NCBI GenBank assembly: GCA_024742875.1
Contig: JANSXP010000066.1
Coordinates: forward strand, 1 to 39,936
Direction: 5' to 3'
DNA: 39,936 nt
Source: Planctomycetaceae bacterium
GTDB lineage: Bacteria; Planctomycetota; Planctomycetia; Planctomycetales; Planctomycetaceae
Shown here: positions 7,706 through 21,286 of the stretch, piece after piece
Position numbering within the stretch: position 1 is the first letter of the stretch
Layout: each line of letters begins with the position of its first letter
The notes under the pieces: generated by a model
Told to the model about the DNA's origin: nothing
Database searches by the model: none
What the model saw: the letters and a program-made list of their open reading frames with translations, nothing else
Program-made: the position numbers and the translations under genes

Positions 7706-8045
7706 GACGATTGCTTCCACAAAACCCCCGGTACGCTGACCGGAGAACGGGGACGACGGTGCTGACCGGTCGCCGGCGCCGTCAGGTCTGGATGGCCCGC
7801 CTGACCATCGCTGCGCCCATTGTCGGCGAAAGGCGGAGCCGACGGAAGTCCCTTTGATTCAACAAATCGTATCGCCGCAGTGTTCGCTGGAATCACCCGT
7901 TTTTTTGCGAATTTGTGAGACAATACGCGGCATCTGCGGCGTCTGCAAACGTAGGGTGCCCCAACTCTTGCTCGTTGATGTTCACTGCTGGCCGTTTTAC
8001 GTTGTCCCGTCTTTCTGCGTGAAGCGTGCCACACTGGAGGCACCT
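7706..8045. other. Divergent intergenic region
   Basis: About 340 bp between the prenyltransferase-fold gene (minus) and the next plus-strand gene. An open frame from 7854 runs in phase into the downstream gene but carries no conserved sequence, and the strong ribosome binding site lies just before ATG 8046, so I treat this stretch as non-coding. I see no convincing terminator or operator. Confidence 0.5.
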
Positions 8046-8594
8046 ATGCAGTCAATGTACTATCTGGCCGACAACCCCTGGCCTCTCGTGCTGGCGTTCG
8101 CCGCCACCTCCATCGTGGCGTTTCTGATTGGCGGCTCAAAAGGACGAGCGACGGCCGGCGTGGCCCTGCTGCTTGCCGCTGCCGTGTATCTGCTGGAGCA
8201 GCAACTGATCTCCCCGGGGGAAGAGGTGGAGATGACCGTCTCCGAAATGCTGGACGACTTCAAACAGCGCGATGTGGACGCCATCATCGCGGCCATCGAT
8301 TCCGCGAAGCCGGAAATCGCTGGGGTGGCCAAACAGGGGCTGGATATGGTCGATCTGTCTCCGGACTTTCACGTCAACAGCGTCGAAGTCACGATGGATT
8401 CGGAAACAAAGGCGACCGCCATGGTGCGTGCCAACGGGAGTGTGTCTTTGCGAAAAGGCGGCGGTACGACTTACCATTTGCCCAACTACTGGCGAACAGT
8501 CTGGATCAAACAGGCAGACCAGTGGGTGCTGACTGATTACGCCCGGCTCAACCCGGTCAACGGTCAGGAAATCGGCGTGTTCTCGGGCCAGTAG
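8046..8594 (+). CDS. Membrane-anchored conserved hypothetical protein
   Basis: A 182-residue protein. Two hydrophobic segments at about 12-29 and 37-52 anchor the N-terminus, and the soluble remainder begins at EEVEMTVSEMLDDFKQRDVDAIIAAI. That region, ending in WRTVWIKQADQWVLTDY, has the helix-then-sheet pattern of NTF2/SnoaL-like domains, although the match is by appearance only. The start is well defined: GGAGG is 5 nt before ATG 8046, with no need for the longer in-frame extension to 7854. No catalytic residues are recognisable. A 12-bp repeat array follows directly after the stop. Confidence 0.7.
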   Translation: MQSMYYLADNPWPLVLAFAATSIVAFLIGGSKGRATAGVALLLAAAVYLLEQQLISPGEEVEMTVSEMLDDFKQRDVDAIIAAIDSAKPEIAGVAKQGLDMVDLSPDFHVNSVEVTMDSETKATAMVRANGSVSLRKGGGTTYHLPNYWRTVWIKQADQWVLTDYARLNPVNGQEIGVFSGQ

Positions 8595-8600
8595 TCGTGC

Positions 8601-8660
8601 AGCACGCGGGCCAGCACGCGGGCCAGCACGCGGGCCAGCACGCGGGCCAGCACGCGGGCC
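8601..8660. repeat. 12-bp tandem repeat, 5 perfect copies, intergenic
   Basis: The unit agcacgcgggcc is repeated five times without mismatch at 8601-8612, 8613-8624, 8625-8636, 8637-8648 and 8649-8660. The array begins 6 bp after the stop of the preceding gene and lies about 160 bp before the next start, so it is probably transcribed but untranslated. It is a minisatellite-like array and has neither spacers nor the length of a CRISPR. Confidence 0.95.
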
Positions 8661-8817
8661 GCTGCCACGAAGGGCTGTTTCCGGCAGGGTGGTGCCTCAA
8701 GGACGCTTCACAACGTGGCGTTTGACCGGCGTGGCCGTTGCCGATTTGGCGGAACCAAACATCCCACCCGAGTCAGGCTTGTCAGCAGGCCGTGGACGCC
8801 GTCAACATGCACGCGTT

Positions 8818-10092
8818 ATGTCACACCACCCGCCGAACGACGCGATTCCCGCCAGTCATGACTCCTCGCCGCTGTTTGCAGATTCGGCACACCGGACCTT
8901 TTTTCGTCTGATCTGTGCCGGGCAGGTGGGCCTGATGGCCGTGACGTGGCCGTTGTGGTTTGGTGGCAGTGATGTGCCGACAATCAGCCTGCTGCCCGAC
9001 TTTGGCCTGCCGCTTCTCGTTGACAGCCTGCTGAGTGGCCTGTTGATCGCCGGCTGTCTGACGCTGGTTTGCTGTCAGACAATTTCGCCTGCACGGATGA
9101 AACTGCTGACCGTGGGCCTGCTGATCCTTGCTGCGGTTCTGGCCGGGCTGAGCACAGCCCGGCTGCAGCCCTGGCACTGGTTACTGATGTTACTACTGCT
9201 GCCACTTTCTTTGTGCCACGGGCGATCGCTGCTGGGTGTTCACCGAGTGGCAGTTGCCTCGATCTATCTGTTCGCCGCCCTGTCGCGATTCGACCCGCAG
9301 CTGCCGGCCGATGGCGGAATGTCGAGCAGCATTCTTCGCGCCCTGCTGGGGATGATCGATCTGGAACATGTGCTGCGGGACCCGGGCACGTCCCGCCTGC
9401 TGATCGTCGCGCAAAGTGGCGTGGAACTGCTCGCCGGAGTTTGCCTGCTGGTGCCGCGCTGCCGCCGCGGCGGTGTTCTGCTGGCCGTGATGATTCACAC
9501 TTCGCTGCTTGTCGCGCTCGGGCCGTGGGCCCTGGGACATTCGTGGGGTGTGCTGCTGTGGAACGCCGTTTTATTGTGCAGCGTTCCGCTGTTGTTTCTC
9601 ACGACAAAGCAAACACGGGCGGCGACAGACGGGGGTTTGTGGACCGGACGGGTCGTCTGCCTGACGGGCCTGCTGCTGCTGATTCCCGCCAGCGCTTTGA
9701 CGGGGGGGGCAGACAACTGGCTCGGCTGGCAGGTGTATTCACCTCGACCCGATCGTGTCTGGCTGAGTGTTGCCGAATCTCAGCGGAAACAACTTCCCCT
9801 GTCGCTGCAGCCGTTTGTTGGCGAACCTCAGCCGCTAAGCGACAGGTGCACGGTCCGTCTGGATCGGTGGGTGAACGCGCACACAGGCGCTCCCCTGTAT
9901 CCGGAGGATCGGTACCAGCTGTCACTGGTGGCCGCCTTAACCTCGACGCTGGATGACGGCGCGTTTCAAATTGGCATCAGCACGCCGCAATCACCCAGGT
10001 GGTGGCAGCGCCGCGAACGCCGACTGACATCACGCAGTGAACTGGAGCAGGCCCTGGCGGAATTCTGGCTGACGCCTGCGATTCGTCACTGA
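8818..10092 (+). CDS. Polytopic membrane protein, MauE/DoxX-like
   Basis: A 424-residue protein with roughly nine hydrophobic segments between residues 28 and 305, then a soluble C-terminal tail of about 115 residues. The middle, SIYLFAALSRFDP followed by GVELLAGVCLLVPRCRRGGVLLAVMIHTSLL, matches the pattern of MauE/DoxX-type four-helix proteins associated with redox functions. The tail (YSPRPDRVWLSVAESQRKQLP onward) resembles the extracytoplasmic end of vitamin-K-carboxylase-like/HTTM proteins only loosely. ATG 8818 (MSHHPPND) is preferred; an in-frame upstream frame to 8689 would run towards the repeat array. The function is unassigned. Confidence 0.65.
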   Translation: MSHHPPNDAIPASHDSSPLFADSAHRTFFRLICAGQVGLMAVTWPLWFGGSDVPTISLLPDFGLPLLVDSLLSGLLIAGCLTLVCCQTISPARMKLLTVGLLILAAVLAGLSTARLQPWHWLLMLLLLPLSLCHGRSLLGVHRVAVASIYLFAALSRFDPQLPADGGMSSSILRALLGMIDLEHVLRDPGTSRLLIVAQSGVELLAGVCLLVPRCRRGGVLLAVMIHTSLLVALGPWALGHSWGVLLWNAVLLCSVPLLFLTTKQTRAATDGGLWTGRVVCLTGLLLLIPASALTGGADNWLGWQVYSPRPDRVWLSVAESQRKQLPLSLQPFVGEPQPLSDRCTVRLDRWVNAHTGAPLYPEDRYQLSLVAALTSTLDDGAFQIGISTPQSPRWWQRRERRLTSRSELEQALAEFWLTPAIRH

Positions 10093-17253: not shown

Positions 17254-17518
17254 GCCGAAGTCTCCTGCCGCCTCGCCCGCAGACTAAGGCAGTGCCATCG
17301 GCATTCTGGGGCAAAAAAGATGTTCCGTCGTGGCTGTACACTTGAGCCTCATCCTTAAAGGTAGTACGTAGGGTGTGCGTGGCGTAAGTGTTGTTTGGAT
17401 GTGCTCCGGGGGTCCCCGGTGGCTGCTTCAATGGATCCACTCTGTCTGACCGCCGCGTGTGAGCGTCACGCACAGGTCCCTGCTTTGAATTTGTATCCTT
17501 TGTGAATCGGAGACAGCG

Positions 17519-20422
17519 ATGAACCACATTCCCGGAATCGTGATACTGACTGCCGCGATCGTCTGTGTGCCCCGTGCGCCTGCCGACGACATGATCTTTC
17601 TCGATCAGGGATGGAATGCGGACCAGCGCGAGCAGTTCTATTTCACGCCACAGGGGTCCCATCTGATTCCCTACAGTTGGTTTCTTGCTCTGGAACAGGC
17701 CGGCAGCGATGCTCTGTTTCGTTCGGCCGACAACATGCGCCGCTACGAGATTCTGCCAGCGCCCGTATCTGACTTGAATCCGGACGGCCTGCCGGTGGGT
17801 TTTGTGAAGGGGACCGTCGATCCGGACAGCCCCGACCTCAGAAGTTTTCAGGGGGAATTCACCGGCGCGAACAAAGCGGACGAGGCAAAGAAGGCGATCC
17901 AGTCGCTGGCCCGTGACGCCCGCCGATACCGAATCAAGTCGGCGTTCCTGGGGGCGGAATTCGACCGCAAGCGTTATCCCCGGCGAGAAAGCAGTGCGTG
18001 GTTTGGTCTGACGTGCGCCGCCTGTCATACCCAGGAGATGGAATTCGACGGACACACGATTCGCATCGATGGCGGATCCACACAGGCCGACCTGGAGTCC
18101 TTTCTCAAAGATCTTGGCCTGGCGCTGGCAGCAACTCACAAAAGCCCGAAAAAGCTGGAACGTTTTGCGCAGCGTGTCGGTCGCAGTGGAGCCATTGACG
18201 ATCTGAAGCAGGAAGTCATGCTGATCGCCGACGCCGTCAATCGCCTGGTGGAACGAAACCGGGCCGACAGTCCGTACGGGTTCGCTCGGCTCGATGCCTT
18301 TGGTGCGATTCTCAATGCGGTGTGTGAGACGGCGCTGGATGAGCCGCGCAATCACCTGACATCAAACGCCCCGGTTAGCTACCCCGCCCTGTGGAACGTC
18401 CCCGCGCTGGGTTTTGTTCAGTGGATTGCCAACTCGCAGTGGGCCGAGAGCCGTAACACGGGAGAAGTGCTGGGCGTGTTCGGTCATTACAGCCTGCAGC
18501 CGGGAAAGGAACAGTTCTCCTCAACCATTCGGCTGCGCAACCTCATCACCATCGAGCATGATCTGCTGACGAAGCTGCAGGCCCCCCAATGGCCCGAAGA
18601 TCTGTTCGGGAAACTGGATGAGCAGAAAGTGGAGGCGGGACGCAAACTGTTTAAGCAGAACTGCGTGGCCTGTCATCCGGTTCGTGGAGAGAACGGGAAA
18701 TTTGCGCTGAACGAATATGGCCGCATCCCGGTAAGCACCACACCGCCGCAGGTCATCGGAACAGACAGCCAGCAACTGGCCAACCTCAGCCCGCAGCACA
18801 TGGCCCACACCGGTCCACTTTCGGAACTGCTGGACGGAAAGGAGCAGGTGCCGCGGACAGATTTGCTGAGCCTTGTGGTGGCGCAGATCCTCAGGAATCG
18901 GGCGGCGAAAGAACACGTGGACCTCGCGAAGTATCTGCCCAATCCGGAAGATCCCAATCCGCCGGGCCCCGGCTATATTCAGCGTCCGCTGGAAGGGATC
19001 TGGGCCACGGCACCCTTTTTCCACAACGGTTCCGTGCCCAGTCTTTACGAAACCCTGCTGCCTTCAGCAAAACGATCGAAGACGTTTTTCGTAGGGACGC
19101 GAGAGTTTGATCCGGTCAAAGTCGGATTCGTCACCGAGGCCAATGGTCGGGGGTCTGTCTTCCAAGTGTTTGATGAAGCCGGAAAGGCCGTGACGGGCAA
19201 CAGTAACGCGGGCCACGAAGGACATACGGCGGAACACGGATTCACGCAGACGCTGGACAACGGTGAATGGCGGGACTTCACGGAAGACGAGATCTTTGCG
19301 CTCATTGAGTACATGAAGTGGCTGCCCGGTCCCGGAACGTCCGCCCCGCCGGCGACCGTGGAAGAGATTCCCGACGGCGAGCAGGCGGCCATCGACAGCG
19401 TGGTCGATCTGACAGCCAGGAGAATGCGGGCGATGTACGCTGAGGGTGGCCTGCGACGGGGAGTGCACCCCAAAGATCATGGTTGCGTGAAGGCCACTTT
19501 TCAGGTGCTGCCGGAAATCGGCGAAGACCATGCCGTTGGCGTGTTTCAGCCGGGTGCGGCGTACGAAGCCTATGTGCGATTCTCCAACGCCAGTGTCGTT
19601 CCCGGAGCAGACTCGTCCGCGGATGCCGATGGGAAGGTGGCACACGGCAGTCGGGGCATGGCAATTAAGCTGATGGGAGTGGCGGGCGATTCGCTCCTGC
19701 CGGAACAGGGCCCGTTGACTCAGGACTTTGTGATGGTCAATCAGCCAGCCTTCGCCTTTGCCAACGTCCACGACTATCAGATCATCAGTCAGTTGCTGCT
19801 GGACCCCGATGTGAAAGACAAAGCGGCCGAATTTGTGAGACGACTGGCCGCAATGGATGACCCGGCGGCGAAACAACGGGCAATGCGGACTGCCACGATC
19901 GCGGGGCGAATCGCGTCGCCAGCGGTCGACGGAGATCGTGGAGCATTCGAACAGCCGCCAGCCAGTCCTGTAGATAACTCCTACTTCAGCGCGGCCCCTT
20001 TTCTGCTTGGCCCGGATCAGGTGATGAAGTTTCGTGTTCGCCCTTTGTCGCGTTCGCTGGAACGGCCGGATGTCGCCGACCCCGACTATCTGCGCAAGGC
20101 CATGCAGGAGCGGTTACGGGGAGAAAAGATCGTCTTTGCGTTCGAACTGCAGGTGCGGTCCGTGCAGGATGTGATCTCTGCCGTTGACATTGAAGATGCG
20201 TCCACCGAATGGGACGATGAGTTTACGCAGGTCGCCACCCTCGTAATCGAACCCCAGGAACCGGTGGCCGATGATCTGTGCGAGAAGCTGTTTTTCACTC
20301 CCTGGCATGGGCTTCAGGCACATCGACCGCTGGGCGGGATCAATCGGCTTCGCCGGGCCGTCTATCTGGCTTCCGGGAAGTTGCGAGGGGCCATGGCAGA
20401 ACCCGCCGGCTTTGTCGACTGA
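17519..20422 (+). CDS. Fusion of RoxA-like dihaem cytochrome c and catalase-like haem domain, secreted
   Basis: A 967-residue protein with a signal peptide. Residues about 25-600 resemble dihaem cytochrome c peroxidase/RoxA-type proteins, starting with QFYFTPQGSHLIPYSWFLALEQ and carrying two haem c sites: CAACH (166-170) and CVACH (382-386). RoxA cleaves polyisoprene with O2; other relatives are peroxidases. Residues about 625-967 match the catalase-like haem family similar to rhizobial y4iL: His650 in RRGVHPKDHGC aligns with the catalase distal His, Arg712 in RGMAIK and Asn741 in MVNQPAF fit the distal pocket. R945xxxY949 in NRLRRAVY is a candidate proximal pair, and PWHGLQAHRPLGGINR is family-typical. 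GGAG lies 6 nt before ATG 17519. Three haems on one exported chain would be expected; substrate and reaction are unknown. Confidence 0.85.
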   Translation: MNHIPGIVILTAAIVCVPRAPADDMIFLDQGWNADQREQFYFTPQGSHLIPYSWFLALEQAGSDALFRSADNMRRYEILPAPVSDLNPDGLPVGFVKGTVDPDSPDLRSFQGEFTGANKADEAKKAIQSLARDARRYRIKSAFLGAEFDRKRYPRRESSAWFGLTCAACHTQEMEFDGHTIRIDGGSTQADLESFLKDLGLALAATHKSPKKLERFAQRVGRSGAIDDLKQEVMLIADAVNRLVERNRADSPYGFARLDAFGAILNAVCETALDEPRNHLTSNAPVSYPALWNVPALGFVQWIANSQWAESRNTGEVLGVFGHYSLQPGKEQFSSTIRLRNLITIEHDLLTKLQAPQWPEDLFGKLDEQKVEAGRKLFKQNCVACHPVRGENGKFALNEYGRIPVSTTPPQVIGTDSQQLANLSPQHMAHTGPLSELLDGKEQVPRTDLLSLVVAQILRNRAAKEHVDLAKYLPNPEDPNPPGPGYIQRPLEGIWATAPFFHNGSVPSLYETLLPSAKRSKTFFVGTREFDPVKVGFVTEANGRGSVFQVFDEAGKAVTGNSNAGHEGHTAEHGFTQTLDNGEWRDFTEDEIFALIEYMKWLPGPGTSAPPATVEEIPDGEQAAIDSVVDLTARRMRAMYAEGGLRRGVHPKDHGCVKATFQVLPEIGEDHAVGVFQPGAAYEAYVRFSNASVVPGADSSADADGKVAHGSRGMAIKLMGVAGDSLLPEQGPLTQDFVMVNQPAFAFANVHDYQIISQLLLDPDVKDKAAEFVRRLAAMDDPAAKQRAMRTATIAGRIASPAVDGDRGAFEQPPASPVDNSYFSAAPFLLGPDQVMKFRVRPLSRSLERPDVADPDYLRKAMQERLRGEKIVFAFELQVRSVQDVISAVDIEDASTEWDDEFTQVATLVIEPQEPVADDLCEKLFFTPWHGLQAHRPLGGINRLRRAVYLASGKLRGAMAEPAGFVD

Positions 20423-20515: not shown

Positions 20516-21286
20516 CTACTCATCCAGTCGTTCCAGCTGGGCGATGGGCACGTAGAAACGCAGATACCGTCTTCCGTCGGAAAACGGTTCGCCGGATGCA
20601 TCGGGAACCAGGACTGTGGCGCGACGAGTGATGCGATTGACGATGCCTTCGTAACGACGGCCGTCCAGGACAAAAGCCACCTGGCTGCCTGTGCGGATAT
20701 TGTATTCGCGATGGGCCAGTTCTCGGGGAGTCAGCAGACTGTGGGTATGCTGCAGGTGCCCGAACTGACGCTGAGCGATGCCCTGAAAACGGTGCAGTGT
20801 GCAGTTGGAATCTGACCACACCAGCATTTCCGCCAGGTGCACCAGCTCGTGTTCCATCACCCGCAACAGGCCCTCCAGCCGGTTCACGCATTCGATGCCG
20901 GTGACGGTGACGGCGTGTTCCGGATCCTGAAACGACTGAAACAGCAGGGTCGAGGAAATGGCAATTTCGTACCTGAGCCGTTCAGGACGCCGCGGATCTC
21001 CCCAGCGGGTCGTCTTGCCGCCGGCGCGCGTCATGCGGCTGGACACGCGAAACGACATTCGCTGCTGATCGAACGATCGCTGAATCAAGCCTCCGAAGAA
21101 CTGGTCGTCGTACAGTTCGTAAATCAGCTGCAGGTCGTCTGGTTTCACCCGGGTGAAGTCGGCCGACTGCAGTTGCGGTGACGATGTGAGGATTTGCTCT
21201 GTGATGGCAAACAGGCGATGCTGCCGATCCTGATCAGACACGGAAACACGCCGAAGAATTTCGCCAAGTTGCTGCGGGGCGGACAT
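20516..21286 (-). CDS. SprT-like zinc metalloprotein
   Basis: A 256-residue cytoplasmic protein. LIYELYDDQFFGGLIQ, then MSFRVSSRMTRAGGKTT, is the SprT-like opening, and the zinc motif HELVH is at 146-150 (within RVMEHELVHLAEM). His165 further on may be the third ligand. SprT/Spartan relatives are metalloproteases, some acting on DNA-protein crosslinks, but bacterial SprT is uncharacterised. The last 60 residues (TGSQVAFVLDGRRYEGIVNRI) form a KOW/SH3-like beta segment that may bind nucleic acid. The start ATG 21286 gives MSAPQQLGEI. It is convergent with the fusion gene. Confidence 0.78.
   Translation of the reverse strand: MSAPQQLGEILRRVSVSDQDRQHRLFAITEQILTSSPQLQSADFTRVKPDDLQLIYELYDDQFFGGLIQRSFDQQRMSFRVSSRMTRAGGKTTRWGDPRRPERLRYEIAISSTLLFQSFQDPEHAVTVTGIECVNRLEGLLRVMEHELVHLAEMLVWSDSNCTLHRFQGIAQRQFGHLQHTHSLLTPRELAHREYNIRTGSQVAFVLDGRRYEGIVNRITRRATVLVPDASGEPFSDGRRYLRFYVPIAQLERLDE

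Follow-up and report, generated by a model that had tools for sequence, protein, structure and literature searches.

The stretch of DNA analysed here (the window, 39,936 nucleotides in full; contig JANSXP010000066.1 of a Planctomycetaceae bacterium, assembly GCA_024742875.1) carries a gene in which a dihaem cytochrome c peroxidase-type domain is joined to a catalase-related domain in a single protein of 967 amino acids (aa). Both halves belong to known families, the two domains are also encoded by adjacent genes in three phyla, and, as judged from trees of both domains, the fusion appears to have arisen independently twice. The features of the gene are listed below; row counts refer to aligned relatives of the domain concerned, and cAOS denotes coral allene oxide synthase.

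17509–17512, forward: GGAG, a likely ribosome-binding site 6 nt upstream of the ATG
17519–20422, forward: fusion gene, 967 aa, one open frame with an ATG start
17519–17584, forward: probable Sec signal peptide, residues 1–22 (hydrophobic core, APA preceding DD)
17612–19318, forward: dihaem cytochrome c peroxidase-type domain, residues 32–600 (NCBIfam NF040606, E 4.4e-145)
18014–18028, forward: first haem c site CAACH, residues 166–170 (C166, C169 and H170 in 21 of 21 rows)
18419–18424, forward: Q301-W302, like the inter-haem Trp of RoxA and PA2077 (Q in 20 of 21 rows, W in 20 of 21; mapped by motif from the available part of PMC4496055)
18479–18481, forward: F321, candidate equivalent, by spacing, of RoxA F317 and PA2077 F269
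18662–18676, forward: second haem c site CVACH, residues 382–386 (21 of 21 rows)
18971–19087, forward: RoxA-like/MauG signature region with HNGSVP, residues 485–523 (Pfam RoxA-like_Cyt-c PF21419, E 1.6e-16)
19214–19216, forward: H566, probable axial ligand of the second haem (aligned with GNxNxGH of RoxA; 21 of 21 rows)
19331–19372, forward: variable inter-domain linker, about residues 605–618 (from alignment with the relative in genome G004)
19355–20419, forward: catalase-related (y4iL-like) domain, residues 613–967 (profiles, AlphaFold model and Foldseek)
19457–19468, forward: R647-G-V-H650, distal haem motif (R and H in 22 of 22 rows; R64, T66 and H67 in cAOS, available part of PMC5617202)
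19577–19579, forward: R687, equivalent of cAOS R102 (22 of 22 rows)
19739–19741, forward: N741, distal Asn (21 of 22 rows)
20345–20386, forward: R943 to R956 with Y949, probable proximal haem ligand (R943, Y949 and R956 in 22 of 22 rows)

The first-pass annotation of this DNA had described a single frame with a signal peptide, two CxxCH motifs within the first 390 residues and a full y4iL-like catalase domain at the C-terminal end, and all of these descriptions hold, the export signal being plausible by inspection (best 11-residue hydropathy 3.21, cleavage site placed by eye). The genome also has two matches to the cytochrome c assembly family PF01578, and attachment of haem c is therefore feasible. 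A frameshift at the junction of the domains (about 19300–19420) is rejected: a genome of the same genus that is assembled as one contig (G004) encodes a protein of identical architecture, 955 aa long and 58% identical to the window protein, which crosses the junction in one frame, as do further fusions; an assembly artefact is therefore rejected. In another genome of the genus (G001) the match is limited to part of the catalase half, within an open reading frame of 239 aa (L014, 8630–9349), perhaps a decayed copy.

The dihaem half and its relatives

The N-terminal half belongs to NCBIfam family NF040606 (di-heme-cytochrome C peroxidase), scoring 484.8 bits against a curated cut-off of 150, and shares with that family the whole domain, two CxxCH motifs, HNGSVP and H566. 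Its best solved relative is the latex oxygenase RoxA (4b2n), both by profile (E 2.4e-27) and as the top Foldseek match of the full-length model. The two have the dihaem layout, WATAPxxHNGSVP, GNxNxGH and the fold in common, whereas RoxA is without the extra C-terminal haem domain seen here. Across the 21 dihaem rows His 502 of the signature (H502NGSVP) is invariant, and position 321 is occupied by F in 12, Y in 5, N in 3 and S in 1.

The label RoxA-like, given in the first-pass annotation, survives as a statement of distant kinship. Membership of the rubber oxygenases themselves was rejected, the scores for RoxA, RoxB and RoxC being 39, 43 and 35.5 bits against cut-offs of 1000, 900 and 900, and nothing points to polyisoprene. 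We therefore hold it highly improbable that the protein cleaves polyisoprene or other isoprenoids at C=C bonds as RoxA does, with the catalase half as a helper: the N-terminal domain does have RoxA as its nearest solved relative, but the scores lie far under all three cut-offs, no rubber or isoprenoid genes occur among the neighbours read, and the pair of domains is found in methanotrophs, Nitrospirota and planctomycetes.

A second characterised relative is the fatty-acid branch represented by the Pseudomonas aeruginosa 10S-DOX/7,10-DS pair (PA2077/PA2078; FadCcp), with which we compared motifs using the available part of PMC4496055 and not an alignment with PA2077. As described there, PA2077 has a Gln preceding the inter-haem Trp and a Phe further along; the Gln with the inter-haem Trp, two CxxCH motifs and the P[YF]FHNGSVP signature are common to the pair and to the window protein.

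The same evidence bears on a purely defensive role, in which the dihaem half would be a peroxidase supplied with electrons by cytochrome c or quinol, the catalase half would serve as a second peroxide sink, and both would break down external H2O2 or lipid peroxides. The family name, di-heme-cytochrome C peroxidase, and the catalase-type pocket of the C-terminal half would suit such a role; however, the solved protein closest to the dihaem half, by profile and by fold, is an oxygenase, RoxA; the stretch that matches the RoxA pocket has V320-F321 together with Q301-W302; and the enzymes of similar size that have been characterised, RoxA and PA2077, are oxygenases (available part of PMC4496055). 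We consider this role decidedly unlikely.

The catalase-like half

Pfam Catalase (PF00199) gives no match in the window protein even at E ≤ 10. A six-row profile of residues 613–967, in turn, matches MAP-2744c (3e4w, E 7.5e-15), coral allene oxide synthase (1u5u, E 3.8e-9) and true catalases, and a 22-row profile likewise ranks 3e4w top. The AlphaFold2 model of the domain (predicted local distance difference test score, pLDDT, 86.3; predicted template modelling score 0.88) has a catalase fold, and Foldseek places 3e4y first, 3e4w second and 1u5u third. With MAP-2744c (3e4w/3e4y), of the y4iL-like family, the domain thus shares the catalase fold, the distal His, the Asn and the proximal Tyr. 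Given that the C-terminal half of the full-length model is poor (mean pLDDT 68.6, with few alignment rows there), we make no claim about the interface between the domains.

H650, N741 and Y949 are located where the first-pass annotation had placed them. According to the available part of PMC5617202 the haem residues of cAOS are R64, T66, H67, R102, N137, Y353 and R360; by position these correspond to R647, V649, H650, R687, N741, Y949 and R956, T66 being the sole mismatch; the catalase-type haem pocket is conserved in sequence and predicted to bind haem. Two further assignments fared less well. Arg712, also listed in the first-pass annotation, is not a defining haem residue, being absent in four of the 22 aligned relatives (L061, L062, L063 and L092), and of the proposed R945xxxY949 the tyrosine is invariant (22 of 22), whereas position 945 is R in 18 rows and K in four. 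A second histidine four residues past the distal one, H654, is retained in most rows of the family.

The residue preceding the distal His is V in 36 of 73 rows, Q in 19, A in 13, and T, L and S in one each, with two rows gapped; seven genes, all with Q, entered this count twice. The Thr of allene oxide synthases and hydroperoxide lyases (AOS and HPL) is replaced by V649 in the window protein, and Val649-His650 argues against allene oxide chemistry. Because of this pair, we favour reduction or a peroxidase-type reaction over allene oxide or lyase chemistry.

The pocket could also be taken to mean that the fusion is protective, i.e. that H2O2 escapes from a dihaem oxidase or oxygenase, or damages it, and that the catalase domain solely removes H2O2. 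Catalases have Val before the distal His, so that the Val-His pair is catalase-like, and some members of the wider family adjoin genes for DyP peroxidases (5 of 17 plasmid loci). However, dihaem dioxygenases of the RoxA or 10S-DOX type are not known to release H2O2; the closest solved relative, 3e4w, is a peroxidase of organic peroxides that is not known to have catalase activity; and the lipid-enzyme neighbours described below would be left unexplained. We regard protection as rather unlikely, while noting one more point in its favour: y4iL-like (CD08152) domains are also fused, there with the catalase part first, to LodA-like quinoproteins, an oxidase family with H2O2-forming amino acid oxidases (available part of PMC4417212).

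Gene pairs, independent fusions and neighbouring genes

We searched the contigs of named genomes with an alignment built from three fusions and retained every locus that matched at least one of two peptide patterns, of which each domain supplied one. Profile searches of the 57 resulting loci found 3 fusions, 20 adjacent pairs, 9 loci with only the catalase-like gene and 25 with only the dihaem gene; the catalase domain is fused in 3 of the 48 loci carrying the NF040606 domain. In all 20 pairs the two genes are co-directional, with profile matches from −4 to 374 bp apart. The pairs come from Nitrospirota (L064, L090, L102), Planctomycetota (L066, L067, L080) and Alphaproteobacteria (L076, L092, L114 and 11 Methylocystis-type loci, which we count as about one lineage), and because every pair is co-directional and the pairs are spread over three phyla, chance neighbourhood is unlikely. 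Gene order varies, the dihaem gene being first in, for example, L064 and L066, and the catalase-like gene in L080, L114 and the Methylocystis-type loci. Three loci (L064, L067, L090) have a row of dihaem cytochrome c peroxidase, catalase-like protein and a second dihaem cytochrome c peroxidase with wider CxxCH spacing; the partner of the catalase gene in the Methylocystis-type loci is likewise a dihaem gene with wide spacing. An N-terminal hydrophobic stretch is present in 15 of the 20 adjacent catalase partners; the signal of the L102 partner depends on the start chosen, and the L080 partner was outside this count. Two of the pairs are irregular: in L076 (7168–8612) the dihaem match is confined to the 3' part of the gene and a transposase-like gene adjoins it, and in L080 (Gemmata sp. 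IIL30, 7950–8872) catalase-like matches lie in two frames beside the dihaem gene.

Among 392 genomes of Planctomycetota, counted by hand, 9 have a strong dihaem match, 13 a catalase-domain match and 5 both, three of them as fusions. A Fisher test of the association gives p 2e-6 (5.5e-4 when the two seed genomes are omitted), but the test is soft, because phylogeny was uncorrected and the counts are lower bounds, two candidates having been scored per genome.

Besides the window and G004, fusions occur in three planctomycete loci from metagenome-assembled genomes (L061–L063), one of which, L063 (VGXR01000063.1), is the separately recovered contig of G328, the third fusion genome. In the tree of the catalase domain (29 rows, omitting eight Methylocystis-type rows and L080), the window and G004 proteins pair among RGVH-type genes, whereas L061–L063 group with L092, an adjacent pair from Reyranellaceae (support 100/96). 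In the dihaem tree the window and G004 proteins group with L066 and L067 (Shimodaira–Hasegawa-like approximate likelihood ratio test, SH-aLRT, 96) and L061–L063 again with L092 (93); this tree has 43 rows, was built by a quick method with no bootstrap and omits matches below 140 bits, namely the Methylocystis dihaem genes, the second L067 gene and the fragments L076, L115 and L116. Forcing the five fused rows together is worse by 116.8 log units for the C-terminal domain (approximately unbiased, AU, test, p 1.3e-54) and by 130.5 log units for the N-terminal domain (AU p 4.3e-5). A single origin of all the fusions is thus rejected on both domains, and the fusion in L061–L063 is independent of that in the window and G004.

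At part of these loci the neighbouring genes encode lipid enzymes. Plasmid pNGR234a has a single match to the catalase-like domain, which therefore must be y4iL, the namesake of the family (the name is absent from the record shown), a protein called uncharacterized in the available part of PMC4417212. It lies in a row of genes of one direction (L118, 3936–10892): RoxA-like piece, catalase, hypothetical protein, dihaem cytochrome c peroxidase and patatin-like phospholipase, the last with a Pfam score of 26.2, slightly below the cut-off of 27.7. The y4iL-like protein is separate at most loci, unlike in the fusion, and in pNGR234a it is two genes from the dihaem gene; its place in a same-strand row with a dihaem peroxidase and a patatin-like phospholipase suggests a function for the family. 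Sinorhizobium fredii CCBAU 25509 retains the arrangement of peroxidase and patatin, and the fusion gene of G004 is followed by a gene for a Tle1-like phospholipase (E 3.2e-44).

In Gemmataceae the catalase-like gene is accompanied by a same-strand gene for an animal haem peroxidase, adjacent in L069 and one gene away in L068, and the closest solved relatives of the L068 peroxidase are cyclooxygenases (COX; E 3.5e-59). A plasmid of Paracoccus yeei has a RoxA-like dihaem gene, a catalase-like gene and a COX-like gene in a row, and in a plasmid of Methylobacterium currus a COX-like gene is followed by a catalase-like one. YRWH, the tyrosyl-radical motif of fungal linoleate dioxygenation (available part of PMC4496055), is kept in all four COX-like proteins. 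Cytochrome P450 genes stand beside the dihaem gene in G014, Siccirubricoccus (L088), Methylobacterium crusticola (L104) and Bradyrhizobium barranii, where an oleate hydratase gene is about 3 kb away; in M. oryzae a regulator separates the two. In the 57-locus scan this arrangement accounts for 2 of the 48 dihaem loci, and L093 has a different P450 3 kb off. The partner of the dihaem enzyme differs even between sister enzymes of Methylobacteriaceae (SH-aLRT 96), being catalase-like in Microvirga (L114) and a P450 in M. crusticola (L104). The loci concerned are as follows.

L068, 6449–11837; L069, 666–3470; L119, 3073–7546; L120, 3083–5936: catalase-like genes with cyclooxygenase-like genes carrying YRWH
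L055, 5721–8812; L088, 7875–10969; L104, 7845–10815; L135; L139: P450 genes, matched by one profile, after NF040606 dihaem genes (four alphaproteobacteria and one planctomycete)

The window gene itself is preceded by a sulfatase gene and followed (20516–21286) by a gene for an HExxH protein (HELVH; SprT-like by eye) with no Pfam match; because both are on the opposite strand, it is probably transcribed alone. Two PF03098 peroxidases are encoded elsewhere in the genome. A YgiQ radical SAM gene lies near the catalase-like gene in all four loci scanned for it in one planctomycete family, f30 (L147, L148, L151 and L152); the name YgiQ comes from an NCBIfam scan of the L148 gene, and the association is uninformative on lipids.

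We also surveyed plasmids, examining 17 of the 116 records with a catalase-like match and, besides NGR234, 9 of the 65 with a dihaem match. The catalase-like gene has a dihaem neighbour in two of the 17 loci, a COX-like neighbour in two (P. yeei having both) and a DyP peroxidase in five, of which three also have an oleate hydratase and one a P450. At L126, L128, L132, L133 and L134 a hypothetical gene and a DyP peroxidase gene accompany the y4iL-like gene, and at three of these loci oleate hydratase and acyl-CoA genes are nearby as well. The nine dihaem loci have a P450 in two cases, a patatin in one and a catalase-like neighbour in none.

Proposed hydroperoxide formation and consumption in one protein

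From the above we hypothesize that the dihaem module makes a lipid hydroperoxide which the catalase-like module consumes, a lipoxygenase-free counterpart of the coral fusions of allene oxide synthase and lipoxygenase (AOS-LOX); we would put this proposal at even chances. What we infer is a lipid substrate, chemistry with O2, transfer of the hydroperoxide and the type of second step, as follows. An exported protein carrying two covalent haem c and one haem b would act, in its dihaem module, like the fatty-acid branch of RoxA-type enzymes, of which P. aeruginosa 10S-DOX (PA2077) is the example. O2 would bind at the N-terminal haem and a hydroperoxide would form on an unsaturated lipid. The catalase-like module would then take up the hydroperoxide at its tyrosinate-ligated haem and reduce or rearrange it before escape, and the fusion would set the two activities at 1:1 and hold a toxic product local.

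In outline the first-pass annotation had already suggested a division of labour, with a (hydro)peroxide formed or reduced by one module and processed by the other; the neighbouring genes, the two independent fusions and the lipid enzymes at some loci support this idea indirectly. Our preference for hydroperoxide formation and consumption also draws on P. aeruginosa. According to the available part of PMC4496055, overexpressed PA2077 kills cells that lack PA2078 and remains toxic where PA2078 is present, while the whole operon permits normal growth, and the authors attribute the toxicity of overexpressed PA2077 to the hydroperoxide. A fused or co-transcribed consumer would solve the problem. 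PA2077 and PA2078 are likewise a hydroperoxide former and a consuming partner, although the partner there is a second dihaem protein and not a catalase-like one.

Several observations weigh against this proposal. The kinship with 10S-DOX is one of published motifs; the Lys that PA2077 has at the position of RoxA A316 is V320 here; and the YRQH of PA2077, as given in the available part of PMC4496055, was not found by eye in the window protein. At the distal haem site V649 takes the place of the AOS/HPL-type Thr. No lipid-enzyme gene lies beside the window gene, to judge from its two flanking genes. The catalase-like partners in L067, L076 and L114 show no signal peptide and may remain in the cytosol, apart from an exported dihaem protein. 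Unpaired copies are numerous, 25 of the 57 loci being dihaem-only and 9 catalase-only (two of the latter, L068 and L069, being those with COX-like genes). In the stretches fetched around the catalase gene, a dihaem match was absent from all ten Planctomycetota genomes with an unfused catalase domain; G014 has one about 11 kb from its catalase-like gene. On plasmids, dihaem, COX-like, DyP and P450 neighbours are all lacking at 9 of the 17 catalase loci, and 6 of the 9 dihaem loci, one of them unannotated, have no P450, patatin or catalase.

A parallel to hydroperoxide formation and consumption in one chain is seen in the coral AOS-LOX and HPL-LOX proteins, in which a catalase-related domain, matching ours in all haem residues but one (T66 versus Val649; available part of PMC5617202), is fused to a fatty-acid oxygenase. 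There, however, the oxygenase is a lipoxygenase at the C-terminal end, whereas here it is a dihaem c protein, so that the fusion to lipoxygenase that marks AOS and HPL is replaced by a fusion to the dihaem domain. The window genome has no lipoxygenase match, although the control genomes gave none either. By title and start of abstract, we found among the matches listed no account in the open-access literature of a dihaem–catalase fusion, of its repeated origin or of the link to y4iL.

More broadly, and with somewhat less confidence than even, we suggest that some bacteria form oxylipins with machinery that dispenses with lipoxygenase. Its parts would be a dihaem c dioxygenase and a catalase-related converter of hydroperoxides, associated with each other in several phyla, fused on at least two occasions and each open to replacement, the dihaem protein by COX-like enzymes and the catalase by P450. 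The fused form may also pass electrons from the haem c chain to haem b, which would make it a self-contained three-haem hydroperoxide reductase. Fusions and pairs together provide a testable hypothesis, namely that members of the y4iL family handle lipid hydroperoxides from dihaem or COX-like dioxygenases. If true, the protein would be a new architecture alongside the lipoxygenase–catalase fusions of corals and Acaryochloris (available part of PMC8124189) and the dioxygenase–P450 fusions of fungi (available part of PMC13049297), and bacterial oxylipin chemistry, known from P. aeruginosa, would extend to planctomycetes, Nitrospirota, methanotrophs and rhizobia.

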